Source: Bacteroidetes Order II. bacterium
Lineage (GTDB): Bacteria; Bacteroidota; Rhodothermia; Rhodothermales; UBA2364
Length of the DNA stretch: 64,000 bases
Reading direction: 5' to 3'
Assembly (NCBI GenBank): GCA_016788705.1
Contig: JAEUSQ010000039.1
Coordinates: 1 to 64,000 of the forward strand
The position numbers and the translations under genes are program-made. Positions within the stretch are counted from its first letter, which is position 1, and the number at the start of each line of letters is the position of its first letter. Of the stretch, positions 16,143-39,516 are shown piece by piece. The notes beneath the pieces were generated by a model that had not been told where the DNA came from, searched no databases, and was given only the letters and a program-made list of their open reading frames with translations.

Positions 16143-17202
16143 TAGGACTTTCGCTTGCGAAAAAAATTGCATAGTTTAGCGTGATAATAACGAAGAAAGA
16201 CTACATAGAGTACTTATTAAGTACGCCGTACAATTATACATGTACGAATATGGCGGAGCATAAAGATCAAGTAAGTCATGATGTTGTCAGTGATTTTTTG
16301 CGTCAGTCGAAGTTTACCCCGACCGAACTATGGAATGTAGTAAGCAGTCACATCCAAGATGATGAGAACTCTGTGATCATATTAGATGACAGTGTACAGG
16401 ACAAGCGGTACTCGAAACTTCATAGAATTAGTCACGCGGCAGTATTCGGGGAACGAACATGGCCTCATAAAGGGCATAGGCCCTGTGAACCTGGTTCATT
16501 CAACGGGAAACGAGGGTGATTTTTGGCCGATAGACTATCGGATATATCACCCCGAAACGGACGGCAAGAGCAAGAATGATCACTTTCAGGAGATGTTCAA
16601 ACGCCTGAACACTCACCAAAACATCAAGGCCCGAACCATTCTTTTTGACTCCTGGTATGCTTCTGTCAGCAATCTGAAGCTGATTAACGCTGCCGGTTGG
16701 ACGTTTTTCACCACACTGAAAAGCAACCGTCAGGTCAGTATCAGTCGGGAAGCAGGCTATAAGGCGGTGTCTAATATGGATTTTGATGAAAAGGCGCTTA
16801 TGCCAGGCATTTGGGTCAAATTGAAGCCCCCCCCCTTTTAAGGTGAAGTTATTCAAGCTGGTTGCCACAAACGGCGACATTGACTGGGTGATAACCAACA
16901 GTCCAGCCCCCTCTGTAAACCGGTTCGTCGTTGAGAACAAGAACGAAAACAGGTGGCAGGTGGAGGACTTCCACAGAGGATTCAAACAATTGACCGGATC
17001 GAAAAAATGCCAATGACGAAAAGCCTGCTCTCAAAGAAACCATTTGTCATGCTGCTATCACGCATGGATTTCGCTCCATGTTATGACTAAACAGATGCGA
17101 AAAACCATTTATCAAGTTCGTAAAGAACTCTTTTCTCAATACTTATGTGCACAACTTAAAAATCCATCCATCAAAGCAATTTGCTGACAAGCGAAAGTCC
17201 TA
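16143..17202 (+). mobile_element. IS701-family insertion sequence (inactive)
   Basis: Perfect 15-bp terminal inverted repeats TAGGACTTTCGCTTG (16143-16157) and CAAGCGAAAGTCCTA (17188-17202). The pentamer ATCTT flanks both ends (16138-16142 and 17203-17207), which looks like the target duplication. Length 1060 bp. It holds one transposase gene that is broken in three places. Confidence 0.85.
16181..17187 (+). pseudogene. IS701-family transposase, disrupted by two frameshifts and a stop
   Basis: It begins with GTG at 16181 (MIITKKDYIEYLLSTP). The first part reads to DDSVQDKRYSK; an extra base near 16422 (AAACTTC) shifts the frame, and QYSGNEHGLIKGIGPVNLVHS continues in another. A second shift falls in a nine-C run near 16828-16837, after which FKVKLFKLVATNGDIDWVITN resumes. 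Near 17011-17016 a TGA replaces the expected Cys codon in KKCQCRKA, and similarity continues to the TGA at 17185. The DDE-type core is all present, so the damage is recent, but three lesions make programmed frameshifting unlikely. Confidence 0.88.
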
Positions 17203-17463: not shown

Positions 17464-19362
17464 TTACTCATGGGGATGTGCAAATCCCATTTGTGTTAGG
17501 TTTTCGGTGATTTCCTCCAGAATGGTAGGATCATCAATCGTTGCAGGAACTTTATATTCCTCGCCATCTGCAATTTTTTTAATGGTTCCCCGCAGGATTT
17601 TACCGGATCGGGTTTTCGGCAAGCGCTTCACAACGGTCGCCAGTTTAAAGGCCGCAACTGGCCCAATTTTTTCGCGAACTAATTTCACCAATTCAGGAAC
17701 GATCACTTCAGCCGGACGCATCACCCCCGCTTTTAAGACCACCATTCCCATCGGAACTTCGCCTTTCAGGTCGTCTTTCACCCCAAATACAGCACATTCG
17801 GCCACATCGGGATGTGAAGCCAATACTTCTTCCATTGCACCCGTAGAAAGCCGGTGCCCTGCGACATTGATTATGTCATCTATTCGGCTCATAATCCATA
17901 GATATCCCTGCTCATCTATATATCCCGCATCACCTGTGAGATAATAACCATCATACATTGTCATATATGAATTCACAAAGCGGGCATCATTGTTCCATAG
18001 GGTCGGCAGACATCCGGGTGGCATAGGAAGTTTTACCACCACATTTCCAATGTCATTTACATCTTTTTGATTGCCCGAAATATCCAGTACTTGCACATCA
18101 TACCCCGGAACAGGCTTCGTCGCCGATCCTGGACGGATTTCAAATTGCTCGATACCGAGACAATTCGCGGAAATAGGCCAACCCGTTTCGGTTTGCCACC
18201 AATGGTCAATTACCGGAACCTTGAGTTGGTCCATAGACCAGATCAGGGTATCAGGATCGCACCGTTCACCTGCCAAAAAGAGGGTACGGAAGTGGCTCAA
18301 ATCGTATTTTGCCAAATGGGTGGCATTGGGATCTTCCCGCTTGATGGCGCGAATGGCGGTAGGGGCCGTAAACAAGACCGATACGTTATGATCAGCGATC
18401 ACCCGCCAAAACGCACCGGGATCGGGTGTACCTACGGGTTTTCCTTCAAATACTACGGTTGTACTTCCATTTAACAACGGCCCATAAACGATGTAAGAGT
18501 GCCCTACCACCCAGCCCACATCCGAAGCGGCCCAGAACACTTCACCGGGCTGCACATTATAAATGTACTTCATACTCCACTGTAAAGCGACCATATGGCC
18601 GCCATTATCGCGGACAATCCCTTTTGGAATTCCGGTAGTACCACTAGTGTAAAGGATGTACAGCGGATCGGTCGCTGCCACCGATACACATTCTGCGGGC
18701 TGGGCACTTTCACAAGCCGTCTCAAAATCCACATCGCGACCTTCTTGCATTTCGGCCTGCAATTGGGGGCGTTGCAGGATTAAGCAAGCATTTGGCTTGT
18801 GGGTAGAAAGGGAAATAGCTTCATCCAATAACGGTTTATAGGCAATAATACGTTGTACTTCTATGCCACAACTGGCAGAGACAATAACCTTTGGCTTGGC
18901 GTCATCAATCCGAGTAGCCAACTCATTTGCTGCAAACCCACCAAACACCACCGAATGAATGGCCCCAATCCGCGCACACGCTAACATAGCCATGACGGCT
19001 TCAGGAACCATCGGCATATAAATCAAGACCCGGTCTCCTTTTTCCACCCCCAATACACCAAGTGCGCCAGCTAATTTTGCCACCCGATCTCTTAATTCAC
19101 GATAGGTATAAGTTTTTTTTGAGTTTGTAACAGGGCTATCATAAATCAACGCATCCTGATCGGCACGTCCATTTTCTACATGTCGGTCTAAGGCATTGTA
19201 ACAGGTATTGGTTTCTGCTCCGTCGAACCACCTATAAAAGGGTGGGTTCATACGATTCAACACACGATCCCACTTCTTATACCAATGAATGCTTTCTGCG
19301 GCTTCGCCCCAAAACCCATCGGGGTCTTGGATGGAGCGATCATATATTGATTGATAACTCAT
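17464..19362 (-). CDS. prpE: Propionyl-CoA synthetase (AMP-forming, PrpE type)
   Basis: 632 aa. The sequence follows PrpE/ACSS3 rather than Acs: IHWYKKWDRVLNRMNPPFYRWFDG and TNTCYNALDRHVE near the start. ATP/AMP motifs YTSGTTGIPKG (~240) and WWQTETGWP; C-terminal [12 protein letters not shown] holds the catalytic Lys that is often controlled by acetylation. It converts propionate (possibly acetate or other short acids), CoA and ATP to acyl-CoA. It lies downstream of an MHS transporter, a small membrane protein and a porin on the same strand, so uptake and activation are linked. Three hairpin units separate it from those genes. Confidence 0.87.
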   Translation of the reverse strand: MSYQSIYDRSIQDPDGFWGEAAESIHWYKKWDRVLNRMNPPFYRWFDGAETNTCYNALDRHVENGRADQDALIYDSPVTNSKKTYTYRELRDRVAKLAGALGVLGVEKGDRVLIYMPMVPEAVMAMLACARIGAIHSVVFGGFAANELATRIDDAKPKVIVSASCGIEVQRIIAYKPLLDEAISLSTHKPNACLILQRPQLQAEMQEGRDVDFETACESAQPAECVSVAATDPLYILYTSGTTGIPKGIVRDNGGHMVALQWSMKYIYNVQPGEVFWAASDVGWVVGHSYIVYGPLLNGSTTVVFEGKPVGTPDPGAFWRVIADHNVSVLFTAPTAIRAIKREDPNATHLAKYDLSHFRTLFLAGERCDPDTLIWSMDQLKVPVIDHWWQTETGWPISANCLGIEQFEIRPGSATKPVPGYDVQVLDISGNQKDVNDIGNVVVKLPMPPGCLPTLWNNDARFVNSYMTMYDGYYLTGDAGYIDEQGYLWIMSRIDDIINVAGHRLSTGAMEEVLASHPDVAECAVFGVKDDLKGEVPMGMVVLKAGVMRPAEVIVPELVKLVREKIGPVAAFKLATVVKRLPKTRSGKILRGTIKKIADGEEYKVPATIDDPTILEEITENLTQMGFAHPHE

Positions 19363-19386
19363 AATATCAACGGTTTAACACAAAAA

Positions 19387-19626
19387 GAGGCAGCATTACC
19401 GGGGCGCGATCACCTTATAGTATAGCTGCCTCCCCCCTACATTGAATATATCTGTTTTGCAAAAAAATGGGCGGTTATAAAACCGTTGGATTTGTTTTTA
19501 CAACCGCCTTTTCCCCTGCATTGAATTTCTGATAGTGCAATTCAGGTTTTGAAAATACAGTGGTGGAGAGATATTGTCATCAAGACGCCATACCCACCAC
19601 CACCGTCCCCTGCATTGAATTTGTGC
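19387..19626 (-). repeat. Three tandem units: conserved 14-mer plus variable hairpin, upstream of prpE
   Basis: On the minus strand ATTCAATGCAGGGG occurs three times (19607-19620, 19513-19526, and 19434-19447 with one change). Each copy is followed by a hairpin of different sequence: GGTGGTGG/CCACCAC, GGCGGTT/AACCGCC and GAGGCAGC/GCTGCCTC. The last two are followed by T-runs, so they look like terminators. Spacing is 79 and 94 bases. The layout suggests sibling small RNAs with a shared 5' end, or repeated leader/attenuator units for prpE. Confidence 0.7.
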
Positions 19627-19633
19627 CTTGCGG

Positions 19634-19651
19634 CAGCGCAAACCACCGCAA
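19634..19651 (-). terminator. Hairpin after the small membrane protein gene
   Basis: TTGCGG and CCGCAA pair around a ~12-nt loop (about 19628-19651) just downstream of the 73-aa gene on the minus strand. No clear T-run follows, so it may be a processing or stabilising hairpin. Confidence 0.4.
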
Positions 19652-19667
19652 GACTAAGTTTTTGAAC

Positions 19668-19889
19668 TTAACTTTCTTCGTTGTATTCCCCTGTCAGCGA
19701 GTAATACCCAAACAAGACCAAACTTCCCACGATGATGGGCGTGAGCACGAGCAGAATGATCCACCCAAAGATCACATCGTCCATTGTTTCGCCGCCAATG
19801 CGCTTAAAACTGTCCACGACACGGTCGTATCCGGCATACAGACCCAGAGCGATCCAGACGACACCGAGGATTTTTTTAATCATATCCAT
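19668..19889 (-). CDS. Small two-helix membrane protein next to the MFS transporter
   Basis: 73 aa. A GGAG motif precedes the ATG. Two hydrophobic segments (~5-20 and ~40-65) flank a short polar loop. Small proteins of this kind commonly sit next to MFS transporters in Bacteroidota and may be accessory subunits. It lies 51 bases after the MFS gene and is probably co-transcribed. Confidence 0.8.
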   Translation of the reverse strand: MDMIKKILGVVWIALGLYAGYDRVVDSFKRIGGETMDDVIFGWIILLVLTPIIVGSLVLFGYYSLTGEYNEES

Positions 19890-19940: not shown

Positions 19941-21467
19941 TCACTCTTCATCAACGGCTTTGTTGGATAAATAGAGGGCACCAATTACCAGGCACACCCC
20001 TGCAATAATGATGGGGTACCACAATCCGGCGAGGTACGGCATGGGGGTTCCTGCTGTTTTTGCCTGTGTGACCAAGGCTGTTCCAATGAATGGCATCAGC
20101 CCACCAAAGATACCGTTTCCAATATGGTAAGGCAGCGACATAGAGGTGTAACGGATACGCGTGGGGAACAATTCGACCAAGAATGCGGCGATTGGCCCAT
20201 ACACCATTGTCACATAAATAACCTGGATAAGGATCAGGAAGATGAGCGTCCACTGCTGTCCAGAGGGCAGCGTAATCGCTTTTTTCACAACGGGTTTCTC
20301 GGCGGTTGTACTCCCTGCTGGCGTGGTCGTCGTTGTGGTTTCTTTAAATTTGGTTCCATCGGTATAGGAACGGGTCACCACTTTTTTCTCAACTTTATTG
20401 CCGTTTTCGGCGGTCGAATTGGTGACATCCGTTTTTTCACTACCTTCAACAACGGTTTTCTTGGTAAGATCGGCCGTGTCGTACATCATGGTATAGATAG
20501 GACGATAGGAGATAATGGCAAGTAGCATACCAGCCATCATAATCCATTTCCGGCCAATTTTATCCGAAAGCCAACCAAAAAGAACAAAGAATCCTGTTCC
20601 AAAGGCGAGGGCGTAAATCAAAATCCATGAAGCCTGTGCCGTATCAAGTGCCATGGTGTTTTGCATGAACGAGAGCGCATAAAACTGACCCGTGTACCAG
20701 ACAACCCCTTGCCCCATCACTGCACCCAAAAGCGCAAGCAAAACCATTTTCATGTTTTCTTTCTTGGTGAAAGACTCTTTCAATGGGTTTGTGGAAATTT
20801 TGCCCTCGGCCTTAATCTTGGTAAATGCTGGAGATTCAGCCATTTTGAGACGAATATAGATCGAAACCCCAACCAATAAGATCGAAATCCAGAAAGGAAT
20901 CCGCCATCCCCAGTCTTCAAACGCTTCTACTCCCAGTGCATTCCGGCACGTAAGAATCACGCCCAACGATAGGAAGAGTCCTAATGTTGCCGTGGTTTGA
21001 ATCCACGAGGTATATAACCCTCTTTTTCCAACTGGCGCGTGTTCGGCCACATAGGTTGCCGCACCGCCATATTCACCTCCCAATGCCAAGCCTTGAATCA
21101 GGCGAAGCACCAAGACAATAATGGGCGCAGCCATTCCAATGGATTCATATCCGGGAACCAAGCCAATCAAAAAGGTTGATCCCCCCATCAGAACTAGGGT
21201 TACGAGGAAGGTGTATTTCCGACCAACAATATCACCAAGACGTCCAAAGACTAGCGCACCAAACGGGCGTACCACAAATCCGGCTGCAAAGACGGCAAGC
21301 GCAGAAAGTAGAGCAGCAGTAGGATTTCCTTTAGGGAAAAACTGTGTCGAGATAATGGCTGCCAACGAGCCAAAGATATAAAAGTCGTACCATTCGATCA
21401 GGGTTCCTACCGAAGAGGCCCCAATGACAGTGCTTATGCCTTGACGGCTATGTGGAGAAGAGGACAT
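19941..21467 (-). CDS. MFS transporter of the metabolite:H+ symporter (MHS) type with a large soluble insert
   Basis: 508 aa, with about 12 membrane segments and the MHS-type start ASSVGTLIEWYDFYIFGSLAAI (~18-38), followed by FGRLGDIVGRKYTF and GLALGGEYGGAATYVAEHAP. Between the two halves, residues ~336-399 form a hydrophilic insert rich in Thr, Lys and Glu (KETTTTTTPAGSTTAEKPVVKK) that MHS members normally lack. Context (porin upstream, prpE and acs nearby) suggests a mono- or dicarboxylate such as acetate or propionate. The substrate is inferred. Confidence 0.87.
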   Translation of the reverse strand: MSSSPHSRQGISTVIGASSVGTLIEWYDFYIFGSLAAIISTQFFPKGNPTAALLSALAVFAAGFVVRPFGALVFGRLGDIVGRKYTFLVTLVLMGGSTFLIGLVPGYESIGMAAPIIVLVLRLIQGLALGGEYGGAATYVAEHAPVGKRGLYTSWIQTTATLGLFLSLGVILTCRNALGVEAFEDWGWRIPFWISILLVGVSIYIRLKMAESPAFTKIKAEGKISTNPLKESFTKKENMKMVLLALLGAVMGQGVVWYTGQFYALSFMQNTMALDTAQASWILIYALAFGTGFFVLFGWLSDKIGRKWIMMAGMLLAIISYRPIYTMMYDTADLTKKTVVEGSEKTDVTNSTAENGNKVEKKVVTRSYTDGTKFKETTTTTTPAGSTTAEKPVVKKAITLPSGQQWTLIFLILIQVIYVTMVYGPIAAFLVELFPTRIRYTSMSLPYHIGNGIFGGLMPFIGTALVTQAKTAGTPMPYLAGLWYPIIIAGVCLVIGALYLSNKAVDEE

Positions 21468-21533: not shown

Positions 21534-22763
21534 TCAGAAGAACACGTAGGCAGCAGCCAAAAGACGCATGTTCATAACAGCTCCATCATTTGCATTGTTG
21601 CTCACAATGGTTGGTGCGCCTTTGGCATCTCGGCCCGAGCCATATTCCGCACCCGTAAAATCTGCTTCGAGGGCCAACCGGAGTTTACCTGCATTGTGTA
21701 CGATGCGTGGAGATACCCGCCAAACATTGAGGATACTGCTTCCACGTGCATTATTGGTAAAGTCTTTGGTTGAGTTTGAGATCAAGTCCTCGGACGCACC
21801 ACTATTAACCAAGTAACCTGCAAAGAGACCTACGGACGTAGGCTTTTTGGTTTGTATATCCACCCAAGCAGTTGTGGTATTCAGGGCTGCATAAGTAGAG
21901 ACATTATTAACGGTTTCCTTTACCCAACCACCTACGGAAAGATGATCGCTCATATCGCCCCCATATGCACCTTTGGCCATAAAGGTCACTTTTTTGTTAT
22001 CTAATTTCAGATAAACATCTGCCGCGCCTGTCGAGATATTATCTGCCAGATTTGCCGGACGAAGGGTTTTATGCATGATGTCTGCCCCAAGGGTCAGGTC
22101 GCCAGATTTGGCCTGAAATCCCAATACAGCCGCTGGTAATACCGCTCTTTGCTGTGCTTTACGCCCCAAGCCAACCGTCTCAAAAACATCCCGCTGCTGC
22201 ATCAACGTTCCAACTAATTTAAAATTGGCGCTTGGTTTCAGGGCTAACTGAATCTGCGGATTGCGGGAGAAGGGTTGCATCGGCGCACCCGTATTAAAGT
22301 TCACCGTTCCCGGAAAAACACTACCGAACAGTGGTGACCATGTCTGGCCGATCAGTACTTCTTTTTTCTTCCATTCCATCTTGGCCCAAGCATGGCGCAA
22401 AACGTAATGGCTAATCGTGGCCTCGGAGGCACCAAAAAAATCGCCTTCAAAATAACCGGATACTTTTGCTCCCATTGCATCGGGCGCGGCGATTTTTCCG
22501 AACAGACGGGTTTGGAACATGGCAAACAATAAATTTGCATTGGCATTTTGGTCTTCATTGTTGCTCATGCTCTTTGCAGTAGGATATAGCAACAAATGGC
22601 CTTCCCGTGCTGAAGCCACCTGACGACTATCCAATATGCCATCAAACTTAACAAAACCACCAAAAGTTACGCCCGGCTGCTGGGCAAACAAGATGGGCAT
22701 TGATAGCCACATCAACATGAAAAAAGAAAGAAGCCTCTTCTGGGCAAATAGCTTTGGGAACAT
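21534..22763 (-). CDS. Outer-membrane porin, DcaP-like
   Basis: 409 aa from the ATG at 22763, which has GAGGA seven bases upstream. Signal peptide ~1-28 (LLSFFMLMWLSMPILFAQ). The mature protein starts GVTFGGFVKFDGILDSRQ and alternates beta strands to a terminal aromatic pair (AAAYVFF), the C-terminal signal for barrel assembly. DcaP-type porins admit small carboxylates. It heads the cluster porin, MHS transporter, small protein, prpE. Confidence 0.8.
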   Translation of the reverse strand: MFPKLFAQKRLLSFFMLMWLSMPILFAQQPGVTFGGFVKFDGILDSRQVASAREGHLLLYPTAKSMSNNEDQNANANLLFAMFQTRLFGKIAAPDAMGAKVSGYFEGDFFGASEATISHYVLRHAWAKMEWKKKEVLIGQTWSPLFGSVFPGTVNFNTGAPMQPFSRNPQIQLALKPSANFKLVGTLMQQRDVFETVGLGRKAQQRAVLPAAVLGFQAKSGDLTLGADIMHKTLRPANLADNISTGAADVYLKLDNKKVTFMAKGAYGGDMSDHLSVGGWVKETVNNVSTYAALNTTTAWVDIQTKKPTSVGLFAGYLVNSGASEDLISNSTKDFTNNARGSSILNVWRVSPRIVHNAGKLRLALEADFTGAEYGSGRDAKGAPTIVSNNANDGAVMNMRLLAAAYVFF

Positions 22764-27506: not shown

Positions 27507-30500
27507 TTATTGTTCAAGTGGGATAGAGAAGGTGCGGGTTAGGCCAAGTGGGTTAGAAACGGTGACCTCTATTATACCCGGTATAAAATCTTTGTTTATG
27601 TTCAATGGAACGGTGAAGGATTTGGTATCCACCTCGTTCGGGGCAATAGGGCCTACCCAAGTTTGTTGCGAAATCGTCCGATATGTCTGTGCACTTAATT
27701 GCCCCAAGTTATCGAGTTTGCGGTAAAGAAATACATAAGACAGCCGACCATTCACCCCAGACTCTTCGTCTTTGAGTTCCAAGGATACCTGAAGCGCTTT
27801 GGTGCGTGCATCCCAGACCGATTTTCCTTCTCCCAGAACAGGCGGTGAGTCGTCCTGCTTAAGAAGAATGGGGCCTACTACCGATAGACCCGATGTTTTA
27901 TTGTGCCCATTAACAACGCGGAAAGAAACATAGTAAGAATCAAAACCCAACTTCTCTGTTTCTGGTATCACAAACCTTCCAAAGTCTCCGCGATCGCAGG
28001 CTATTTTCCCCCAAGCCCGAACATCGGCCAAACCAACATCGGTCCCAATCGCATATTCGCAAGTTCCAATACCCGTTTCCTTGTCTTCGCTAGGTTCTGT
28101 GGTGACAAATACGGCTTGACTTAAGCCATGACTGATGCTCCGATAGGCTTGGATCATCGGCGCAAGCGGTCGGGTGGGATCGGGTGTTTCTCCTAAGTTA
28201 ACAACCATTACTGGGCTACGCCTTCCAAAAAAATCCTCGGAGAAGACGAATAAGCGTGCATCGGCATAGGGAACGGTATTCTGAATATTCAGCGTCATTG
28301 TCTCGCCTTCTATGCGGTCCACATACCGCACGGGTGGGTCTAAGTACCAAAATTGTGCCATATTCCGGCGTGCAAAGGCATCAGCAACCACCCCAGCAGA
28401 ATCCCGCTTGCTGGTGACAATATATCCATACCGCCGGATGATGTCACGTGGATTAGTAATTTCCACTTGGTATTGAGTGTATAAGTAAGGGTTCGTCCCA
28501 CGCTTTACATAGTTATTTAACTCCGCTTCCGCCACTTGTGGGAAGACCACAGGATCTGGCATCGGTACATCTTCCTCACCAGCACGGTTGTTTTCGAATC
28601 GGATAAGGGCAGGCAGCTTGGGCGGGCTGAGGTCTAAGCGCACCGGAGTTGGGATATAATAAACTGCTTGTAACCCTTGCCCATTCTCGGCAACCACACT
28701 AAAATAATAGTCTCGGTCTTCTTGTAAGTTCAACCCACTGGCCTCACCCAAAATCGTTGAAGTACTGCGGGTCCGGTCTATCACCCCAACCAGTGGTTGC
28801 CAAGTCTGTATATTGGTTTCGCCATAAGCAGATCCAATGGCGTATGAGAATGATTTGATGTCCGACTCGGAATCCGCTGCTGATGCGGACAAAGCCACGC
28901 GATTTTGTTTATTCACCCAAATGGGCGTAACGCCTTTTTCGGGATCAAGTACCCCTGTTTTCTGCGGAACATCTGGTCCTACGACAATCCATGCCGATCC
29001 AATAGTTGGTGGTGTATAATCTTGCGAAACCAGATTGCCATTTCCAGTGGGCATGGCCACTCCCAGTTGTAAGACATTTGGATTCATCACAATTCCTTCT
29101 TCGCTCACGTCCACATTAAACGAAACCGTTCGCCTGGTCACATTTCCGGCAGGTCCACGTGCTTGTAGGGTCACTTTGAGCGCCTGTACTTTTTCGTTTT
29201 CCAATAAACGGACGGTTTCAAAGCTCTGTGAAGTACTTTTGCCTACACTCAGCATGACTTGTTCTGGCAGATAAGAAGCCATTACATTGATAACGGGTGC
29301 AAACATAGCCCTTTGTTGCAGGAGCGGGAGATTCGCATCTACGACGGCCTCTTGGCTGGAGACCGCAGAAGCCCGAACGGTTGATATACCGCCCGAAACC
29401 GACAAAGCATATTCAGAAACCGATAGCGGATGTTGTGCCGCCCATGTCAGGTTGACCACCCCCAAATTGGTATTTCGTTGTGCTAAAAGATTGATTTGGG
29501 AAATGGAAGGGGCCTGTAACGCCAAGGCAAGTCCTGTTTTCAGGGATTCGAGCGGTTCATTACCTTTTAAATTGCTAGAACCCCGCCATGTGGCAAAGTC
29601 TGAGACCATTCCATATAAAGTAACCACCATCTGTGATTTCAGGCGCTGAATTTCGGCCATTCGGCGCGAAAACTGTTCCCATGGTGTGAGCAAGTTCTGA
29701 CGTTGTATAGAGAAGCTGCTGATTTCATTCTGGATTCTGGCTGGCCCAGTCGTTTCGATCAGTCGTTCTAAACCCAATTGAAAGCGCTCTATCCAGAACT
29801 CGCGCTGAATCCGGTTTACGTTTTCTTTGAATGCTCCTTCATTAAAAGAAACCGCATATTGTCGGATAGCATTGTTCAACGTTGTCGCATTTTCCGCCAT
29901 CGAATTCCACGAGATGTCCGTTCCAATCGTCATTCTTTGGTATAAGATTGAGGCCATCGCTCCAGCATCTACCCCTACCTCTTGTCCAGCAGCACCCAAG
30001 GCCACCCGTGTATTCCAAGCCGTATTAGAGGTGGTATTAATTTCGTCTAAGACGGCTGGAACCAAGCCATTTAATGTACTCAACCGCTGCTGATACGTTT
30101 TCCGTAAAGACCAGATATGGGCAATCCGACGGCTGTAATAGCTATAGACATTGTTCAGCGAGGCCGAGAAGAGGCGTGCGTTTTCCTCCAATTCTCCGTT
30201 TCCGGCGTTTGAAATCGCGGGAATATCTACTGGGCGTTCAAGGCCATTCATCCAAGCTGCTTCTCCCAATAGGTTGACCTCTGTTTTCCCAATGTGTTGC
30301 CAAACCTGAATAATGGCCTTTCGGTACTTGGCCTCGATGGCCTCGATGGAAAGTTGTAAGTTGCCCAACGATCTCCGGTTTTGGTCATCGGCGGCTGAAT
30401 CGTATTGATAGGAAGGTGGTTCTTCGCCTTGCCATGTTAGATTAAGATTTGAGATGGGGTTTTGAACCGATTGTATTTGTGCCTCCATGGTTTCCGATTC

Positions 30501-33500
30501 CTTCACCGACTCGATGGCAATGGCCTTTATTTCCTCTAAACGGGCTTGCATGGCCGCTTCTTTGTCTTTCAAAGCCGTCAGGGAGGCATTCATCAGATAG
30601 GCGTAATGGTCTTCGGAAATGAACTTTTCTGAAAGTTGCCCAGCCAATACTTGGTTATAGACATCGGTAAAGGCTTGTGGCCGATACGGACGTTGTGGCC
30701 ATCGGTAGTATTTTGCAGAATATCGCCAAGTATCACTGTTCTGGTCTAAGAGGCTCTGTTTTTGGTCTGGCCGGAGAAGCAAGAGGTTGGCACCGGAGGC
30801 AGCCAATTGCTCCCTGCTCATAAACGCTGCGGCTGTAATGGCGGCTTGCAGGGCTTGCTGGGCTTGATTGGCCTCGTTTTTCATATTTTCGGCATCTTGC
30901 ATGGCTTCTGCAATCATGGCTTCGTATGCGGAGTTAGAACCGAGACCTCCATCCCACTCACCATCATAATTGGCGATATAAACCGATATTTTTCCAAACA
31001 AGACTTTTACCCGTGCTCCTGCATAAAATAGTGTTTTGTTGTTTCGGCTGATAAAGGCCCCTTTTGCCGTGACACTGGCCAATTCAAAGCCCAGCACTTC
31101 TATACCTGCCGTCATTTCTCCATAAGCTCCCATATTCTTGCCATTGCTTCGCCACCACACCATAAAGTCGAAATGAACCGTTGTGGATACAATGGCCAAT
31201 GAAAGCCCCGCATCAATAGACAGTTTAAACAAGAAACCTGGATCTCCTACAAAAAACTCGCCTTCCATCCCCACAAACAAGACCCGCGCCTTCACATTGC
31301 CCCAAATGGCCCATTTGGTATTTCCATTTTGGGAAATCAGGTTAAAACCCACCTCCGCACCAGCATACAATAAAAACCCAAAATCCAACTTAGCCCCCAC
31401 TTCTCCAGCGATCCGGAAGAGATTGGGTTCTTTATGAATGTTCAAGTACATCCCCGCCTGAAAGACCGGCAGGTCAAAAATGGTAACATTGGCATTGACT
31501 GTAAAATCAAATTTATCAAAGCCATCGCCAAAACTAAAGGCCAGCAAAGCCCTTCCTCGGACCATTTTTAGTACATCAATTTGTGCAAACAGCAGTGCCG
31601 TAAAATCCATCCCATCAATTTGTGGCACCCGATCCGGTTTATACAGTGCTTCGCGTAAACCGGGCAAAGTCATCACCAATTCCATATCGGCTTGTTCTGG
31701 GCGAATAAAAAAGCCTGCCCCAATACTGGAAAGTGTGAGTACCCCCGGAAAAATCTCGATTGGGAAGTCTATCTTGGCGAAAAGCCCCATCGTTACTTTG
31801 CCATCCCGCACCCCGATTTTTCCTGCCAAAGCACCTCCAATACCCGGAGCCATTTCTACGCCACCTGCTACCCGCAGTACAAAGCCCCGTGCATCGGTCA
31901 GATATTGCATAGAGGCCGTCGCTTTCGCAATCCCACCTAGTTCCAAATGTGCGTTTTTAATAGATAAGAAAAACCCGCCGTTTTGCTTTTCATAGACCAG
32001 CACTTCATCTACGCCCCCACCAAGGCCATCGCCAATCGTAATGGTAGCACCCGCTTTTAGGTAGTATTTTACCGGAATAGATTCGGTATTTTGTTGCACA
32101 CCACTTGGCCCTCCACTACTGGTGGGCAAAGTAAGGGTTGTGGGAGTGCTGCTAAAAGCGAAACCATTTAAGGTAAGCGAAACCACTTCCATTAGTTTTA
32201 CACTGACCTCGCCTGTTGGGCTTCCGGAATCTATAATTCCATTGGTTCCAATCGTTAGCCCTTGATAGCCAAAGGTACCCGAGGAACCCGCTAAATTTAG
32301 GCTGGCTGTTCCGCCAATCACTACCGCAAATCCATTTTGCGCTTTAAAGCCAATGCTCAGATTGGTCACTTTAAATACACCCGCATCTACGTCGAAGCGA
32401 AATTGGGCATTGGGGAACCGCCATTCTACTCCCTGATTAACCGACAACTTGAAGCCCCAGTTTTGGTCTATATTTGCCGGAGATCCAAAGGCAATGATCT
32501 TCGACTCATCGTTCCCAAATTTAAGTGAAGCCGAGGCCATAATAGACGTATTGCTTGGATTGCTCCAATCGGCCACAAACTTGATTCCCGTCAATTTCAA
32601 CTTGGCCATACCGCCCAAATCCACCTCCGGCGCACCAGCTATGCGTTCATCTTTCCCAAAATCGAACGTGGGGTAGATGGGTGTAAAGACAGGTATTCCA
32701 TCTTGTCCAAGGGCAACCGTTAGACCCGCTTCTCCAGAGGATTTGAAGGGTTCGGGCAACGTGACAAGACCGGATGCCGTGATTTTAGGACGGTTGTTCT
32801 CGACCCCAATTTTCAGGGTATTAAAGACAAAGAGGTTTGGTATGATGCTGATTGGGTCATTCGGATTGAGGAGGTTGAGCGTGGCATCGCCAACCGAGAA
32901 AGAGCCATCCGTTCCAATTACGAGGTTATTAATGGGCAAGGCTTTACCAAGAAATGTAAGGTCTCCATCCAATCCAAACCGTAAAATACTATTTTGGATA
33001 CTGAGGCGCATTCGCCGAATGAGTAAGGGGAATTGCTCTCCTAAGAACTTGGTTTGTTGTTGGTTATTGAATTCGGCTTGCGTAAGTGATACCCCACTTG
33101 TGCCGATTTTCAGCCCACTTACGCCCAGCGCAAAGCCTTTTCCGAGCATTTCTTCCATCTTGAAGGTTCCGTCCAACATCAAGGCAAACTCGGAATCACT
33201 ATTAACCAAGCCAATACGCGAGGGCACAAAATCCGCAAAGCCAAGCGGAATGCCTTCCAAAATCACTGACCCAGTGGCATTCCAGGCATCCTCGCCGGAA
33301 TTACCCATGTTTTTGCCGCTAAATCTTGGATCTACCAAGACATCAAAATTCCAGGCATTGTTGTAACCGCCGACCAACTGGAAGCGCCCCGGCTTTCCGG
33401 CATCATCCTTAAAGAAAGACGTAGCCAATTGTCCGCTTAGTGCCACACCACCAAACCCATTGTTCTGGATGGTAAACGATACACCACAAATGGAAATCTG

Positions 33501-36500
33501 TACCGCATCTCCACCAAAGTTCATTTTTTTCAAGGGGTTATCTGCACAACTTTGCTGAAATTGGATACTGGCATCACCAAGAGAAAGGATGGCATTGTCA
33601 AAACCACGGTCAGTAAGGCGAAGTCCGGTAAGTTCTAATGGCGCATCCCGATCCAACATCTTGGGCAATTTAACGAAGGCATCTGCCAATAGCGCCGGAG
33701 CACCATTGACCAATTGGAAACGCAATTGTTTGAGCGTAAGCGGGGTGTCTTTGAAGAGTTTTTGGTTAAGGGCATCGGTCACTTCCACGTCCAATTTTTC
33801 GAAAGACTCCACCGAGGCGCCATTAAAAATGGCACTAAAGGAGGTCTTCGCATTGGGTGCGCGCGCAATCCCGGCCAACACCAAATCATTGGATTGCCCA
33901 GGTCGGGTAAAAATCCGCATCCGACCATTGCCTAAGTTCTCGGTGGCAATCAGTAGGTTATTGCCTTGTTTGAGTTGGATATAGGCCACCGAGGTGGTGG
34001 GGACGGGCAATTTTTCGGGTAATAGGTCTGCAATAGCCTCCCCGATATTATCCGGATGGAAGCCATCTTGGTCTAAATAAGCCACCCGTTCCTCTTGCCC
34101 ATCGTCGCGGGTACGGAAGTACTCCACCTTGCCATCTCGGACATAGACCGAGCCAAAACCGAAGGCAACTGGACCAAATTTCTGTTTGAGTTGCGGGAAG
34201 TTTAGGCTTCCTATCCGCATTTGGGCAGAAGCTTCACCCGATAAGGCCATCCCGTCTTTGGTGATCTGCACATTGGCTGGAATCCCCATTTTGAGTAAGT
34301 TTCCGGAAGCAGGCAATGGCGTATTCGCATCAGTGATGCTCCATTCTCCACGATCAAAGAAAAACTGAAAAGCCAATGGCGCTGAAATTTGAATGGAACC
34401 ACTTTGCAAAACATTGCCGGCAAGGCCAAAAACAGCCTCATTGAAAGCCGTATTAACGGTTCCGCCACCTACCCGCAACCCACCTTGGCCATTTAGTTTC
34501 AACCCACCTTCCGTCAGGCTGGCATCTGCAACCGAAAAGGCAAAAATGGGATTATTTTTAGGGTAATGCCATGTGAAGGGTTGGTTGATGACGATCGAAG
34601 TGGGAGCCAGTATGTCGCCATTAAGGAGGTTAACCGCCAAATTTCCATTGCCTCGTACCGCGCCGCCTTCATTCTCAATAACGGCCTCGGCAGATCCGGT
34701 TAAGAGAAACGACGCTTCGCCATTCCCGAGTTTCAGCGATAAGGTGGATTGCTGAAACTGAAGTGATACCGCCCCAAACCGGATCGTGCCACACGGCGAC
34801 ACATTCGGCACAACAGCCTCTATCCTGCCCGAAAGCCGCAAGGTCGCGGTCATATCGGTTTGGCAGCCATTTGCATTTTCTACTACTTGCGGCCATTTCA
34901 ACGTACCCTTCAGGTGGATTTCCCCTTCTTGCACCCCATTTTGACCCAATAACCGACCGCTGATTTTTGTTATCCGGAGGGCAGCCTCTCCCCCCAACCC
35001 CAAAGATTTTTCCTGCATCAATTCCAATTCATTAAAGGAGCCACTCAAAAGGCCCTTTTCAAAACCAGCATTCCGGATCACCAATGTTTGATTGGCCAAC
35101 TCTGGTGAGCGGTCAGCAAGACCCGATGGTTTGATCCGTAAATCTAACTGGGGTGCAATATTGGGTGGATTTGCGTCAAAAATATTAATTCGGGTCTTTG
35201 CCAATCGTGCCCCAATGGTCTGAACCTGAATGGCACCAAGGTTTACATAAGGAGCACTCAAGGGAGGGGTCGTGCCTTCGTGTAGGTCTGTTTCTGGAAA
35301 GTCAAGACCCGCCTCGGTCAATTCCACCCCATTCAACGGAATTTCCAGACCACGCCCATTGGCCAAACCGAGCCATAATGCCGCTGCCAGACCCATTCGG
35401 AACGAAAACTGTTCTTGCCGATAGTCCAATTGGACATGCTGAATTCCGGAAAGCCGTAGGCCCCAATCCCCTACCGTTACGTTTTGCGCTTCTGCATAAA
35501 GTGGCTCAAATCGGGAAAGCGAAAAACCATCATGCGTATATCGAAAACCTGCCAAGGCCGAAGCCACCACCGCACTCGATTGGCTGCGGATTTCAATATT
35601 TGTTTCGCCCGTGATAAGGTACGTAGAGGGTCCGCCTTGGATTGGTAGGGCCATCTGGAGATTTATAGAGCGGAGGTTCATTCCCACCCAGCCTTTACCG
35701 GGGAGAAAAGGTATAAATTGATCTGGATTACAGGTAGCAGCAACTTTCCAGTGTTGATCTGTTTGCGTGAATAATTGTATCGGGCACGCATCGCCAAGGG
35801 TTTGTCCAAACAAGGACAACCTCCCAGCTATGGTCAGTTTGCCTTCTTCAAATCCCAATATCAAGGAGGTAAACGGGAGATTTTCCGGCAATTTGAGGTC
35901 CGCTCGATTGGCCACGGGAGCCGTCAGACTGCCCCCCGTCACTTGTCGGGTATTGGGGTTATACACCAGATTATCAAATGCCAACTCTACTACGGGCGGC
36001 GTTGCTTGATTGCCCTGAAGTGCGGGCAAAACCCAACGGGCTTTTTTTCCAGGAAGTGTAAAGAGGCGTAACAACCCATTTCCCATATCTTCAGAAGAGA
36101 TCACGGCCACCCCATTGGTTTTGACCAAGAGGTGCGAAACCGATTCCAAAGGCAGGGCAATCTGATCCGGTAACAAGGCCGATGCCAAATTGGTGGCCAT
36201 CCGCAAACCAAGTGCACTGAGCGTTGCAATTCGGTTGTCCTCTTGATCAAAACCAACTTCTCCTTCCAAAATACCAAGGGGCGACAAAGAAATCCGGAAT
36301 TCCGCCGAGGCTTGGGCCGTTAGCCCTGTGAGGGTGATTTCACCAACCCGAATGTCACCATTTTGAACAAGATTAGCCGCGCCATCTCCCGGATTGGGTT
36401 GAGGGAATACCCATCCTAATGCTGAAATTTGAGAAGAAGCAGGCAACCAAAAGGTTAACCCTTCGGGACGTTGGGTGGCGGGTAATGAGGAATTGTTCGA

Positions 36501-39491
36501 CAGCGAAATTCGTCCTGATTGTCGGTCAACAGCGGCAAACATCTCTACGCGACCATCCAAGGTAATCGTTCCAGATAAGATGCGGTGCGTGGCAGGGTCT
36601 AAGACCACTTCGTCGAAGGTTGCACCACCCAAAGAGGTGGCTGTTTGACCACCAGAATTACCGATTCCCAATAAACTTCCCCGGCCATTGATCCGAATGC
36701 GCTCTTCACTAAATTGTATAGCATTTGCCTGAAAATGAAAGGCAGGGTTATTTTTGGGAATTGAAAGTTCTGCGGATATCGTACCTCCAGCAGTCGCCCC
36801 CAATTGCCAATTATCAAATTGCCCGGTCATCAGGTCCAAGTCCACATTGACAGGAATCGTACCAATGCCCAATAATTCACCTTCTCCGGTCGCTCCCAAG
36901 AATCGGGCCGATTGCCGACCATTTTCTTCCCCCAATACCACTCTTGCGGTTCTCAAACGAATGCCATACCCCTCGTGCTGCACCGTAACTTGTTGCACAA
37001 TGTCGCCCGATGCGGCATTTGAGACCCAAAAACCCCGCGTATTAAGAGAAATTTGCGCCAGGTCTTGCGTGGGCAATAAGGTGGATGTTCCTCCGATGAT
37101 AATGCCGCGTTCAGGTGACAAAGGTCCAGAAAGCTGTAAGCTCCCTGTGGGCTGGGCGAATCCACTAACGGTGAATTGGTCATTGTCTTCATAATTTACA
37201 TTTACCACTGCCCGTAGTTTTTCCACTGCTATCTGCGCCACCGGTTCAGCCAACTCAGGCGATTTTAAACCAGAGACACAAGGGTGTGGCAGTTCAGAAA
37301 GGTTACTCGACCAACCAAAAAACTTGCCATTCCACTGACCATTTTGTACAGTAAAAACGGTGGTTTGCAAACAGGTAGGAATCCTCGAAAGGCCACTACC
37401 GAAGCGAAAGTCTAAGTCCACTTGTGCGTTCCACGGGCCTGCATCACGACTTGGCATCCCCAACCAATCTACCAGAACCGGAGGTTGTCGGAATCCTGTA
37501 AACCGTCCCTCGAAAGGTGCAATCAAGAAGGTTGAGGACGGGGCCAAGTGTCTTTGCGACAAAGCAATTTCTGGCAATTGAAAGGGCGTGCCGTCAAAAA
37601 TCAGGTTTGAGAATGTAACAAAAGGCTCCCCGCCCAACAGCCTATTCACCAAACCCACTTGCAAATTCAATCGGTAGGTCCAGCCAAAGTCATCCCTAAA
37701 TCCAAAAGACTCCAACCGTATCCGCCCGATTAAGAAGTCTATGGTTCCCGTCTCCAAATACGTCTGCCGGTCACAATTTTGGATACCTAATTCTGGTTGA
37801 GATGTAGTGACTTGGTCTTGTACACGGATTGGAAAAAGCACGCCGCAATATTTTCCATCGCGGTTCAACAAGGCCAATTCAGCCATCAAAGTCAGGTCTG
37901 TGGATAATTGGTTTTGTATAGCATCAACCGAAAAATTACCTGTAAGTTGTTGTATGTTAAGTCTTATTTTAGATTGATCTGGCAAGTTAGATAGCGATAA
38001 ATCCAAACGGCAAGAAATCGGAATTTGCCCAGCCAGATCGTCTAAGGCCACCCCTTCCACCCGACAATTTGTTGGCTTCCCAAAGAGAGCAAGAGTGGCC
38101 ACGCCAGTGGTTTCGCCTCTGGGAAGTCGAACCCCCAGACGACCCATGAATAATTTGACAGGACCATTTTCATAGACCACCGGATTGGGTAAGTTGGCTT
38201 CTATGAGGCCGGAAAATCCGGTGGCATCAAATAAAACTTGTCCAGTAGCTGGCAAGAAGTTTCCTGTTTGCGGATGTTTAATTTTCGCCTCGACCACAAA
38301 TCCTTGCACACGATCCCAATAAAATACTTGTAGTTGTACGTTTTCCTTTGGAAACGGTACACCAAGCGCATGTATGGCATTGTCTATATGAACCTGCCCG
38401 CCGATGACAGCCAAAGATTGTGGCTGAATTTGTACGTTTTGGAGCCGGACCCGAAGGTCTTTTGGGCCATCCGGCATCTCAAGGCGTAGGGTTGCAAAAC
38501 CAGAAAGCGTTTTTAGTCCCCCAATATCCTGCGAAAACGCTGCTGAAAGCCCTCGTAATTGCGCAAATCCGGGGATTAAGGCAACCTGATCCCAAGCAGG
38601 CGGGGCATTGGGGTCTTCTCCGGATGGATTTATGGGATCTTGAACAATATTGACGGCACTTTTGGTGAAGGTCACAATTTCCGAAAGCCCATTACGAGTA
38701 ATAGGTGCGTTGCGGCTCGTCTCCTCGGTTTTCAGCCGAACGGCGTAGGCTGCCCCTTCTTCCAATGCCGGATAGGCCGCCGAGTACACAAAAGTCGTTT
38801 GATTGGTGCGAATTACTTGTCCAGTAGCCAGAGGATTGCTGCTTAATGCTTGTAACGGGCTTTGATTGGGCAAGATTTTTGCGATATACAGGCTGTACTG
38901 AAAACGATCAGCAATCCCGCCAATAACGGGCGTCCATGAAAACGTCATGGGCGACTCGGCCACCTGCGACTCATGAAGCGGCGAAACCAATACAGATGGC
39001 TCCGGATACAGGATCTCGGTGGTTCCAACCGCTGGCGTTGTGAGGATCGCTGCATCCGCCAATGGCTCAATTTCCAGTTCATAGGCTCCTTCTGGTATCA
39101 ATCCAGAACGCAATGCCACTGCCTGATACTTGCTTTCCAACTGGTTGATCACATCCTGAATACCCACTTCAAAACGGATCGAAGGGGTATCCTTAAAGGT
39201 GCGATACGTATAAATGCCCGGCGCATATGAATTGGGGCGTGAGGTGGTCGAATAGAGCACCTTGCCATTGTGCCGAAAGGTTACTTTGAAGCGAAAGGCT
39301 ACAGGTGTGGCGTCCAAAGGGTTTTGATAGACAAATTGGATTTGGTATTTCCCCGAGTCATATTCACGGAGCAAATCGGTATAGGTAGAAAAACTGGCCT
39401 GTGGCAAAACACCAATCAGATTCACTTGGGCCGTTTGCGACCAAGCCGTCGGCCCAAGGAGGAAGAGGAAAAATAGAAAGGATCTTTTCAT
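27507..39491 (-). CDS. Giant (3994-aa) secreted beta-rich surface protein, function unknown
   Basis: Start taken at 39491, where MKRSFLFFLFLLGPTAWSQ gives a clear signal peptide; the frame is open 66 codons upstream. Residues ~100-280 are fibronectin-like (SPLHESQVAESPMTFSWTP). Residues ~300-2500 are a long run of irregular beta repeats in which phrases such as SGLLSGSF-, LRLTDRGFDNA- and GNGLLRLFTLPG/GNGRMRIFTRPG recur, suggesting duplication of a large unit. Around 2500-2800 hydrophobic, Gly-rich strands look barrel- or sheath-like. A helical/coiled-coil section starts near 2850 (EAMQDAENMKNEANQAQQAL), and the C-terminal ~700 residues return to fibronectin-like domains. There is no catalytic motif and no recognisable T9SS tail. 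It is flanked in an operon by a barrel protein and a fibronectin-III protein. I do not recognise the family. Confidence 0.85.
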   Translation of the reverse strand: MKRSFLFFLFLLGPTAWSQTAQVNLIGVLPQASFSTYTDLLREYDSGKYQIQFVYQNPLDATPVAFRFKVTFRHNGKVLYSTTSRPNSYAPGIYTYRTFKDTPSIRFEVGIQDVINQLESKYQAVALRSGLIPEGAYELEIEPLADAAILTTPAVGTTEILYPEPSVLVSPLHESQVAESPMTFSWTPVIGGIADRFQYSLYIAKILPNQSPLQALSSNPLATGQVIRTNQTTFVYSAAYPALEEGAAYAVRLKTEETSRNAPITRNGLSEIVTFTKSAVNIVQDPINPSGEDPNAPPAWDQVALIPGFAQLRGLSAAFSQDIGGLKTLSGFATLRLEMPDGPKDLRVRLQNVQIQPQSLAVIGGQVHIDNAIHALGVPFPKENVQLQVFYWDRVQGFVVEAKIKHPQTGNFLPATGQVLFDATGFSGLIEANLPNPVVYENGPVKLFMGRLGVRLPRGETTGVATLALFGKPTNCRVEGVALDDLAGQIPISCRLDLSLSNLPDQSKIRLNIQQLTGNFSVDAIQNQLSTDLTLMAELALLNRDGKYCGVLFPIRVQDQVTTSQPELGIQNCDRQTYLETGTIDFLIGRIRLESFGFRDDFGWTYRLNLQVGLVNRLLGGEPFVTFSNLIFDGTPFQLPEIALSQRHLAPSSTFLIAPFEGRFTGFRQPPVLVDWLGMPSRDAGPWNAQVDLDFRFGSGLSRIPTCLQTTVFTVQNGQWNGKFFGWSSNLSELPHPCVSGLKSPELAEPVAQIAVEKLRAVVNVNYEDNDQFTVSGFAQPTGSLQLSGPLSPERGIIIGGTSTLLPTQDLAQISLNTRGFWVSNAASGDIVQQVTVQHEGYGIRLRTARVVLGEENGRQSARFLGATGEGELLGIGTIPVNVDLDLMTGQFDNWQLGATAGGTISAELSIPKNNPAFHFQANAIQFSEERIRINGRGSLLGIGNSGGQTATSLGGATFDEVVLDPATHRILSGTITLDGRVEMFAAVDRQSGRISLSNNSSLPATQRPEGLTFWLPASSQISALGWVFPQPNPGDGAANLVQNGDIRVGEITLTGLTAQASAEFRISLSPLGILEGEVGFDQEDNRIATLSALGLRMATNLASALLPDQIALPLESVSHLLVKTNGVAVISSEDMGNGLLRLFTLPGKKARWVLPALQGNQATPPVVELAFDNLVYNPNTRQVTGGSLTAPVANRADLKLPENLPFTSLILGFEEGKLTIAGRLSLFGQTLGDACPIQLFTQTDQHWKVAATCNPDQFIPFLPGKGWVGMNLRSINLQMALPIQGGPSTYLITGETNIEIRSQSSAVVASALAGFRYTHDGFSLSRFEPLYAEAQNVTVGDWGLRLSGIQHVQLDYRQEQFSFRMGLAAALWLGLANGRGLEIPLNGVELTEAGLDFPETDLHEGTTPPLSAPYVNLGAIQVQTIGARLAKTRINIFDANPPNIAPQLDLRIKPSGLADRSPELANQTLVIRNAGFEKGLLSGSFNELELMQEKSLGLGGEAALRITKISGRLLGQNGVQEGEIHLKGTLKWPQVVENANGCQTDMTATLRLSGRIEAVVPNVSPCGTIRFGAVSLQFQQSTLSLKLGNGEASFLLTGSAEAVIENEGGAVRGNGNLAVNLLNGDILAPTSIVINQPFTWHYPKNNPIFAFSVADASLTEGGLKLNGQGGLRVGGGTVNTAFNEAVFGLAGNVLQSGSIQISAPLAFQFFFDRGEWSITDANTPLPASGNLLKMGIPANVQITKDGMALSGEASAQMRIGSLNFPQLKQKFGPVAFGFGSVYVRDGKVEYFRTRDDGQEERVAYLDQDGFHPDNIGEAIADLLPEKLPVPTTSVAYIQLKQGNNLLIATENLGNGRMRIFTRPGQSNDLVLAGIARAPNAKTSFSAIFNGASVESFEKLDVEVTDALNQKLFKDTPLTLKQLRFQLVNGAPALLADAFVKLPKMLDRDAPLELTGLRLTDRGFDNAILSLGDASIQFQQSCADNPLKKMNFGGDAVQISICGVSFTIQNNGFGGVALSGQLATSFFKDDAGKPGRFQLVGGYNNAWNFDVLVDPRFSGKNMGNSGEDAWNATGSVILEGIPLGFADFVPSRIGLVNSDSEFALMLDGTFKMEEMLGKGFALGVSGLKIGTSGVSLTQAEFNNQQQTKFLGEQFPLLIRRMRLSIQNSILRFGLDGDLTFLGKALPINNLVIGTDGSFSVGDATLNLLNPNDPISIIPNLFVFNTLKIGVENNRPKITASGLVTLPEPFKSSGEAGLTVALGQDGIPVFTPIYPTFDFGKDERIAGAPEVDLGGMAKLKLTGIKFVADWSNPSNTSIMASASLKFGNDESKIIAFGSPANIDQNWGFKLSVNQGVEWRFPNAQFRFDVDAGVFKVTNLSIGFKAQNGFAVVIGGTASLNLAGSSGTFGYQGLTIGTNGIIDSGSPTGEVSVKLMEVVSLTLNGFAFSSTPTTLTLPTSSGGPSGVQQNTESIPVKYYLKAGATITIGDGLGGGVDEVLVYEKQNGGFFLSIKNAHLELGGIAKATASMQYLTDARGFVLRVAGGVEMAPGIGGALAGKIGVRDGKVTMGLFAKIDFPIEIFPGVLTLSSIGAGFFIRPEQADMELVMTLPGLREALYKPDRVPQIDGMDFTALLFAQIDVLKMVRGRALLAFSFGDGFDKFDFTVNANVTIFDLPVFQAGMYLNIHKEPNLFRIAGEVGAKLDFGFLLYAGAEVGFNLISQNGNTKWAIWGNVKARVLFVGMEGEFFVGDPGFLFKLSIDAGLSLAIVSTTVHFDFMVWWRSNGKNMGAYGEMTAGIEVLGFELASVTAKGAFISRNNKTLFYAGARVKVLFGKISVYIANYDGEWDGGLGSNSAYEAMIAEAMQDAENMKNEANQAQQALQAAITAAAFMSREQLAASGANLLLLRPDQKQSLLDQNSDTWRYSAKYYRWPQRPYRPQAFTDVYNQVLAGQLSEKFISEDHYAYLMNASLTALKDKEAAMQARLEEIKAIAIESVKESETMEAQIQSVQNPISNLNLTWQGEEPPSYQYDSAADDQNRRSLGNLQLSIEAIEAKYRKAIIQVWQHIGKTEVNLLGEAAWMNGLERPVDIPAISNAGNGELEENARLFSASLNNVYSYYSRRIAHIWSLRKTYQQRLSTLNGLVPAVLDEINTTSNTAWNTRVALGAAGQEVGVDAGAMASILYQRMTIGTDISWNSMAENATTLNNAIRQYAVSFNEGAFKENVNRIQREFWIERFQLGLERLIETTGPARIQNEISSFSIQRQNLLTPWEQFSRRMAEIQRLKSQMVVTLYGMVSDFATWRGSSNLKGNEPLESLKTGLALALQAPSISQINLLAQRNTNLGVVNLTWAAQHPLSVSEYALSVSGGISTVRASAVSSQEAVVDANLPLLQQRAMFAPVINVMASYLPEQVMLSVGKSTSQSFETVRLLENEKVQALKVTLQARGPAGNVTRRTVSFNVDVSEEGIVMNPNVLQLGVAMPTGNGNLVSQDYTPPTIGSAWIVVGPDVPQKTGVLDPEKGVTPIWVNKQNRVALSASAADSESDIKSFSYAIGSAYGETNIQTWQPLVGVIDRTRSTSTILGEASGLNLQEDRDYYFSVVAENGQGLQAVYYIPTPVRLDLSPPKLPALIRFENNRAGEEDVPMPDPVVFPQVAEAELNNYVKRGTNPYLYTQYQVEITNPRDIIRRYGYIVTSKRDSAGVVADAFARRNMAQFWYLDPPVRYVDRIEGETMTLNIQNTVPYADARLFVFSEDFFGRRSPVMVVNLGETPDPTRPLAPMIQAYRSISHGLSQAVFVTTEPSEDKETGIGTCEYAIGTDVGLADVRAWGKIACDRGDFGRFVIPETEKLGFDSYYVSFRVVNGHNKTSGLSVVGPILLKQDDSPPVLGEGKSVWDARTKALQVSLELKDEESGVNGRLSYVFLYRKLDNLGQLSAQTYRTISQQTWVGPIAPNEVDTKSFTVPLNINKDFIPGIIEVTVSNPLGLTRTFSIPLEQ

Positions 39492-39516
39492 GATGACATG
39501 TATAGCTAAAAGAGGC

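Follow-up and report, generated by a model that had tools for sequence, protein, structure and literature searches.

A genus-restricted array of three tagged hairpins, probably an RNA gate, upstream of an acyl-CoA synthetase gene in Rhodothermales

Three hairpins that carry the same short sequence at their foot stand in series before a single metabolic gene, which raises the question of whether they are a set of small RNAs or a control element of that gene. They lie in the window analysed here, a 64,000-nt stretch of contig JAEUSQ010000039.1 from a Bacteroidetes Order II. bacterium of the Rhodothermales. The original prediction favoured sibling small RNAs, each with its own promoter and terminator, and named repeated attenuators as the alternative. 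Judged by sequence anatomy and conservation, the array is probably an RNA gate on the synthetase gene and not a small-RNA set.

Three tagged hairpins between two genes

On the minus strand, 305 nt of non-coding DNA separate a DUF6814 gene (19889-19668) from an acyl-CoA synthetase gene (19362-17464). This region contains three hairpin units, each made of a 14-nt head, a stem-loop and a U-rich tract. The predicted threefold recurrence of a 14-mer on this strand holds for two exact copies of ATTCAATGCAGGGG; the third copy has a single mismatch. The heads are spaced by 94 and 79 nt in the window and lie 0-4 nt from their hairpin in every unit. No 14-mer in three near copies arose in 300 dinucleotide shuffles of the intergenic region, and the folding of the whole 305 nt against shuffles gave z = -5.6.

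The first head (ATTCAATGCAGGGG, 19607..19620) is followed by a terminator-like stem-loop (19557..19606; -24.6 kcal/mol) and by the weakest of the three U-rich 3' sides, AUUUUC (19551..19556). The second head (ATTCAATGCAGGGG, 19513..19526) lies inside a 29-nt run that is invariant in the three genomes of the genus, and precedes the terminator-like stem-loop GGCGGTT...AACCGCC (19470..19508; -17.1 kcal/mol), in which two-sided changes keep the pairing. Its U-tract (CAUUUUUUU; 19461..19467) has seven T, nine in G001, and continues into the invariant TTTTGCAAAACAGATATA. Beyond a link (19469-19448), the third head (ATTCAATGTAGGGG, 19434..19447) carries a C where the other two genomes have T. It is followed by the terminator-like stem-loop GAGGCAGC...GCTGCCTC (19386..19433; -23.3 kcal/mol) and by TTTTT (19382..19386), which by its sequence is the last U-tract and ends ~20 nt before the synthetase start codon. 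All these features lie on the minus strand, and the U-tracts and G.U pairs are sensible only in RNA of that strand, on which the flanking genes also lie. A simple terminator scan, with loops limited to 8 nt, for this reason listed no stem but that of unit 2 on this strand; an ad hoc terminator count over the window was too permissive for use.

A further hairpin that the original prediction had not described precedes unit 1. This hairpin 0, GUCUUGCGGUGGU-UUGC-GCUGCCGCAAGGC (19625..19654, minus strand), is invariant, lies directly upstream of head 1 and folds at about -21 kcal/mol in the window's genome (G000). The similarity said to reach upstream of the heads (TTGCA...CAGA) does not extend to all copies, since GAAACAAAACCATAG takes its place at unit 2 of the third genome.

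The gene behind the array (17464..19362, minus strand) encodes an AMP-forming acyl-CoA synthetase of the AcsA/PrpE kind (PF00501, PF16177, PF13193). It had been named prpE, and its best NCBIfam score is indeed for propionate--CoA ligase, although this score of 772.8 is under the curated cut-off of 955, versus 671.6 against the acetate--CoA ligase subfamily, which is above its cut-off of 657. Its putative substrate is acetate or propionate. A contig search with the synthetase returned only distant relatives. In the region downstream of it, overlapping frames at 16181-16985 resemble, by inspection, a broken transposase.

Upstream of the array, on the same strand, are the genes for the small membrane protein with DUF6814 (19668..19889; PF20664, 1.5e-24), for an MFS transporter resembling metabolite:H+ symporters (19941..21467; PF00083/PF07690; TIGR00883 at 371.7 bits, below cut-off) and for a porin-like outer-membrane protein (21534..22762, ATG at 22762), which matches no Pfam family and was named by inspection from its position and sequence. 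These three genes are presumed to form one operon for carboxylate transport. Further upstream lies an acetate--CoA ligase gene, behind which its own terminator-like hairpin was recognised by eye. A neighbouring protein on another contig has a C-terminus resembling a sorting domain, which together with DUF6814 points to Bacteroidota, perhaps Rhodothermia. In its C-terminal half the MFS transporter contains a long, hydrophilic insert rich in Thr, Lys and Glu, TEKTDVTNSTAENGNKVEKK...TTTTTTPAGSTTAEKP, and its matches to transporter profiles break near this insert. Elsewhere in the window, a single open frame of ~4060 codons occupies 27507-39689 on the minus strand.

The leader of the porin-like gene (22905-22763, minus strand) is near-invariant in the three genomes, with perfect runs of 48 and 28 nt; it is conserved more than the surrounding genes and folds with z = -3.45. 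Two competing helices can be seen by eye, one of which would cover a GAGG just 5' of the ATG. The leader belongs to no Rfam family, and nothing truly related to it was found in 241 further genomes of the class. It resembles a leader of the riboswitch type that would serve the entire operon. Pairing of the array's head with this leader was also considered and rejected, as a loose 7-bp match is at chance level (about one expected by hand estimate).

Conservation within the genus

The three-unit array occurs at the identical place in both other genomes of the genus, G001 and G002, with identities of about 90% and 76-78%. Its geometry is nearly fixed: head-to-head spacing is 94/94/93 and 79/81/78 nt across the three genomes, differing by 1-3 nt, and the distance from head 3 to the synthetase ATG is 83/85/85 nt. 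Heads 1 and 2 are invariant in 14/14 columns each and head 3 in 12/14 (100%, 100% and 86%), its variation consisting of one substitution in G000 and one 1-nt deletion in G002. Invariant columns make up 64%, 60% and 66% of stems 1, 2 and 3, only 43% of the link before head 2, and 100% (22/22) of the link before head 3. Hairpin 0 with its link is 93.5% invariant and includes a 24-nt core, TTGCGGTGGTTTGCGCTGCCGCAA, that does not differ among the three genomes.

The basal pairs of all three stems are kept, and every stem shows two-sided changes, at least four of them in stem 1; for example, G-C becomes A-U in unit 1, A-U becomes G-C in unit 2, and the basal A-U of unit 3 becomes C-G in G002. The pairs were counted on folds of single sequences, each anchored at the head. 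The stems diverge with their pairing kept and the heads are near-invariant; the stems therefore seem to be maintained for their structure and the heads for their sequence, a pattern that is suggestive and, with three genomes, not statistically strong. The combination of conserved head and variable stem, as first proposed, is strongly supported by this comparison.

A search for further copies of the 14-mer beside hairpins had been suggested, and it gave no second conserved locus in the genus. When the head core was sought with at most one mismatch in the three genomes, the only sites outside reading frames were the array and one unconserved site, and all remaining one-mismatch sites lay inside reading frames. 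The unconserved site, on another contig of the window's own genome (C21:76999), does have a hairpin, but G001 reads GTTCAACTCGGCC there and we regard it as chance. The tandem-head pattern was absent from 111 other genomes of the order. A looser pattern, applied to 394 genomes drawn from the phylum (a draw that partly overlaps the order's 111 and adds ~350), found the genus and two single matches, and the reversed control also gave two. With no second locus in these searches and the same array in three species, the array is thus, on these comparisons, a local triplication that predates the split of the three species and is seen only in this genus. A dispersed repeat of the REP, BIME or MITE kind is ruled out, the array being the sole conserved locus.

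No Rfam 15 family matches the array at or above its gathering threshold, and the window as a whole yields tRNAs only. At a permissive E-value the matches were weak and far under threshold, the best of them on the opposite strand. A G-quadruplex and a riboswitch aptamer were dropped as candidates, as the stems share no sequence and the G-runs are arranged differently. The array is a real and conserved RNA element, restricted to the genus and without a match among catalogued families.

Candidate functions of the array

The main rival to a gate is a group of sibling small RNAs, and we regard it as doubtful in each of its forms: that every unit is, or is processed into, an RNA of ~60-90 nt; that its 5' tag pairs with C-rich sites in target mRNAs and its stem serves as terminator; or that an RNase cuts the units out of the transporter mRNA at its 3' side. 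Multicopy small RNAs usually look like this, with a conserved 5' tag joined to divergent terminators, and tandem siblings have a precedent in NmsRA/B (PMC5362039). Processing has one too, since CcsR1-4 are processed out of the 3'UTR of a gene for a small protein (PMC8307010), and the units described here lie behind the DUF6814 gene. Against these likenesses, only ~24 nt separate the preceding U-tract from the head of unit 2 and ~13 nt from that of unit 3, the link between units 1 and 2 is the poorly conserved one (43%), and the genome has no further copies. Consensus scans, whose consensus may not be the host's, found no conserved promoter-like site before the heads or in unit 3. The proposal that each sibling has its own promoter is weakened by this lack of space, of a promoter-like site and of a second locus. 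Unit 3 also ends ~20 nt before a start codon, which would be odd for a free small-RNA gene.

The pairing of the tag with targets fares no better. Among the matches listed, no conserved gene-start site was complementary to at least 12 of 13 head letters, and a conserved target able to pair with most of the head was not seen either. Hfq was not found in the genus, though it is not a requirement for such RNAs. The expected G-rich unpaired 5' end is not simply so, for the GGGG of the head is predicted to pair with the U-tract. Small RNAs may be processed from the intercistronic RNA.

The same geometry speaks for a gate. With only ~20 nt between the last U-tract and the ATG, a promoter serving the synthetase alone would have to overlap unit 3. 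As units 2 and 3 leave no room for a promoter and the last U-tract lies near the ATG, synthetase transcripts most likely read through the array. The head could in principle be explained as part of its own hairpin through GGGG.UUUU pairing. Shuffled heads, however, fold equally well in 11-57% of trials for units 1 and 3, and it is only in unit 2 that they rarely match the real head (1-7%). The head sequence of units 1 and 3 is thus left unexplained by folding, and recognition by a common partner becomes likelier; the lack of any other conserved non-coding head site in the genus fits a dedicated cis element. Such a partner is not CsrA, as CsrA (PF02599) was found in none of the three genus genomes and the control genomes were positive, which rules out a CsrA/RsmA-controlled element.

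The explanation that fits best, and which we advance tentatively at just short of even chances, is a series of tandem conditional terminators, or attenuators, at which a putative trans-acting factor reads the tag and gates the acyl-CoA synthetase. The 305-nt region would then be an intercistronic RNA control element. As its anatomy suggests, polymerase arriving from the upstream genes would pass three serial intrinsic-terminator-like hairpins before the synthetase, each carrying at the 5' foot of its stem one copy of the 14-nt RNA tag. A factor acting in trans, in the simplest case an RNA-binding protein, may read the tag as it leaves polymerase and, bound at the 5' foot, may hinder formation of the hairpin (or, with the opposite sign, help it), so that both termination and readthrough would follow the signal to which the factor responds. 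Three serial tags would give a steep and tight gate, by which synthetase expression could vary independently of the transport genes. Repeated attenuators, which the original prediction had placed second, fit the locus better than sibling small RNAs. A few points stand against attenuators: the first U-tract is weak, that of unit 3 is interrupted in G002, the genomes number only three, and inspection of them recognised no conserved alternative antiterminator fold. Neither CsrA nor the ScfR family was found as a candidate factor, and a promoter inside the array may have escaped the scans.

Ribosome-controlled attenuation is a further reading, which we judge quite improbable. The tag contains an ATG (ATTCA-ATG-CAG-GGG) that would open a very short frame running into the hairpin, where an initiating ribosome would prevent the terminator from forming. 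The ATG is kept in 9/9 heads, and unit 2 reads, by eye, MQGKRRL-stop in all three genomes, with the changes in G002 all synonymous (TTG to TTA, TAA to TAG). The other units do not follow: unit 3 gives no more than ATG-TAG in the window but a frame of at least ~25 codons in G002, with a different length in G001 as well, and the peptides of unit 1 vary in residues and length (MQGTVVVGMAS, MQGMVVVSLASR, MQGTMVVSA). A conserved short frame overlapping each terminator, as a leader peptide would show, was therefore not found in units 1 and 3. Moreover, the CAGGGG after the ATG is stricter than initiation needs, and an ATG is expected by chance in about one 14-mer in five.

Intercistronic processing with stabilising stems is another, unlikely, explanation. 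Here the tag would be an endonuclease site and the hairpins would protect mRNA ends and set the ratio of upstream to downstream mRNA, with terminators that are incidental or constitutively leaky. A repeated conserved motif beside a stem would suit it, as would a position between genes that perhaps need different amounts of product, yet it requires neither three copies nor U-tracts, and a cleavage site with no other conserved genomic locus would be unusual for a general RNase.

At the level of DNA, the heads could be three direct-repeat sites to which a transcription factor binds, the terminators doing no more than closing the upstream operon. The repeats are conserved and an invariant palindrome, TTTTGCAAAA, lies between units 2 and 3, but we give this reading very little credence: the repeats stand 0-4 nt from RNA stems in 9/9 units, no conserved promoter is nearby, the window has 8 copies of TTTGCAAA where 4 are expected, and the ScfR family, whose members are the known readers of a TTTGCAAA-like site, was not found in the genus. 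Two of the TTTGCAAA palindromes are at 19463-19456, within the invariant TTTTGCAAAA, and at 25496-25489, in the gap that precedes the acetate--CoA ligase gene. Processing sites, ribosome-controlled frames and DNA-binding sites are all less likely explanations than tandem terminators.

Within the preferred reading of tandem terminators, one more specific and speculative version, which we regard as doubtful, is an undescribed lineage-specific antitermination or termination-enhancing system, composed of one putative RNA-binding factor, a linear tag and three serial terminators. Tag and terminator could then evolve independently and produce a multi-step gate on acetate or propionate activation, and the invariant hairpin 0 could possibly be a loading site.

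The literature that we found records little on RNA-level control in this part of Bacteroidota. If the units are attenuators, they would offer a clean and testable example of intrinsic termination being controlled in a sequence-specific manner with no RNA antiterminator involved; if they are small RNAs, they would be a new sibling family in an organism where no Hfq was found. Under either reading the locus predicts a specific RNA-binding partner, for which the 14-nt RNA AUUCAAUGCAGGGG is usable as bait.

Comparison with known systems

In the PyrR-controlled pyr operon of Bacillus subtilis, a protein controls transcription attenuation at repeated sites. Like that operon, the array comprises several terminators with a related recognition sequence just upstream, among genes of a pathway. 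PyrR binds hairpins that have mutually exclusive antiterminators and stand before different genes, whereas the tag of the array is linear and abuts the stem, no antiterminator is seen, and all three units follow one another in front of a single gene.

Intrinsic premature terminators and orphan attenuators have been catalogued, including the tandem terminators of the rimP leader, a pair recorded in some Gammaproteobacteria, in a survey that makes no mention of Bacteroidetes (PMC2965389). The array resembles these attenuators in having 5' terminators close to a start codon, and differs from the rimP pair in its three units, identical tag and unrelated stems.

Among sibling small RNAs, LhrC1-5 of Listeria are likewise multicopy RNAs with a short common functional motif; theirs is CU-rich, their similarity extends over the full length, and copies occur beyond one intercistronic gap. 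NmsRA and NmsRB of Neisseria meningitidis share with the array a tandem arrangement, terminators and a link to central organic-acid metabolism, but they are near-identical, with 70% identity over their length, and have their own starts and UC-rich anti-SD regions (PMC5362039). In contrast, the units of the array share only 14 G-rich nt. The gonococcal siblings NgncR_162/163 show the same likeness in tandem order, terminators and central organic-acid metabolism (PMC9973317). CcsR1-4 of Rhodobacter sphaeroides are tandem related RNAs directly behind a small-protein gene, as here, and arise by processing of a common precursor. Unlike the array, in whose genus no Hfq was found, they are Hfq-bound; they also carry a different motif and have, in the available part of the report, no gated structural gene described immediately downstream (PMC8307010). 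The array belongs to a kind already known, whether tandem terminators or sibling RNAs, and its form is unusual, with an identical linear tag on unrelated terminators, three in series before one gene.
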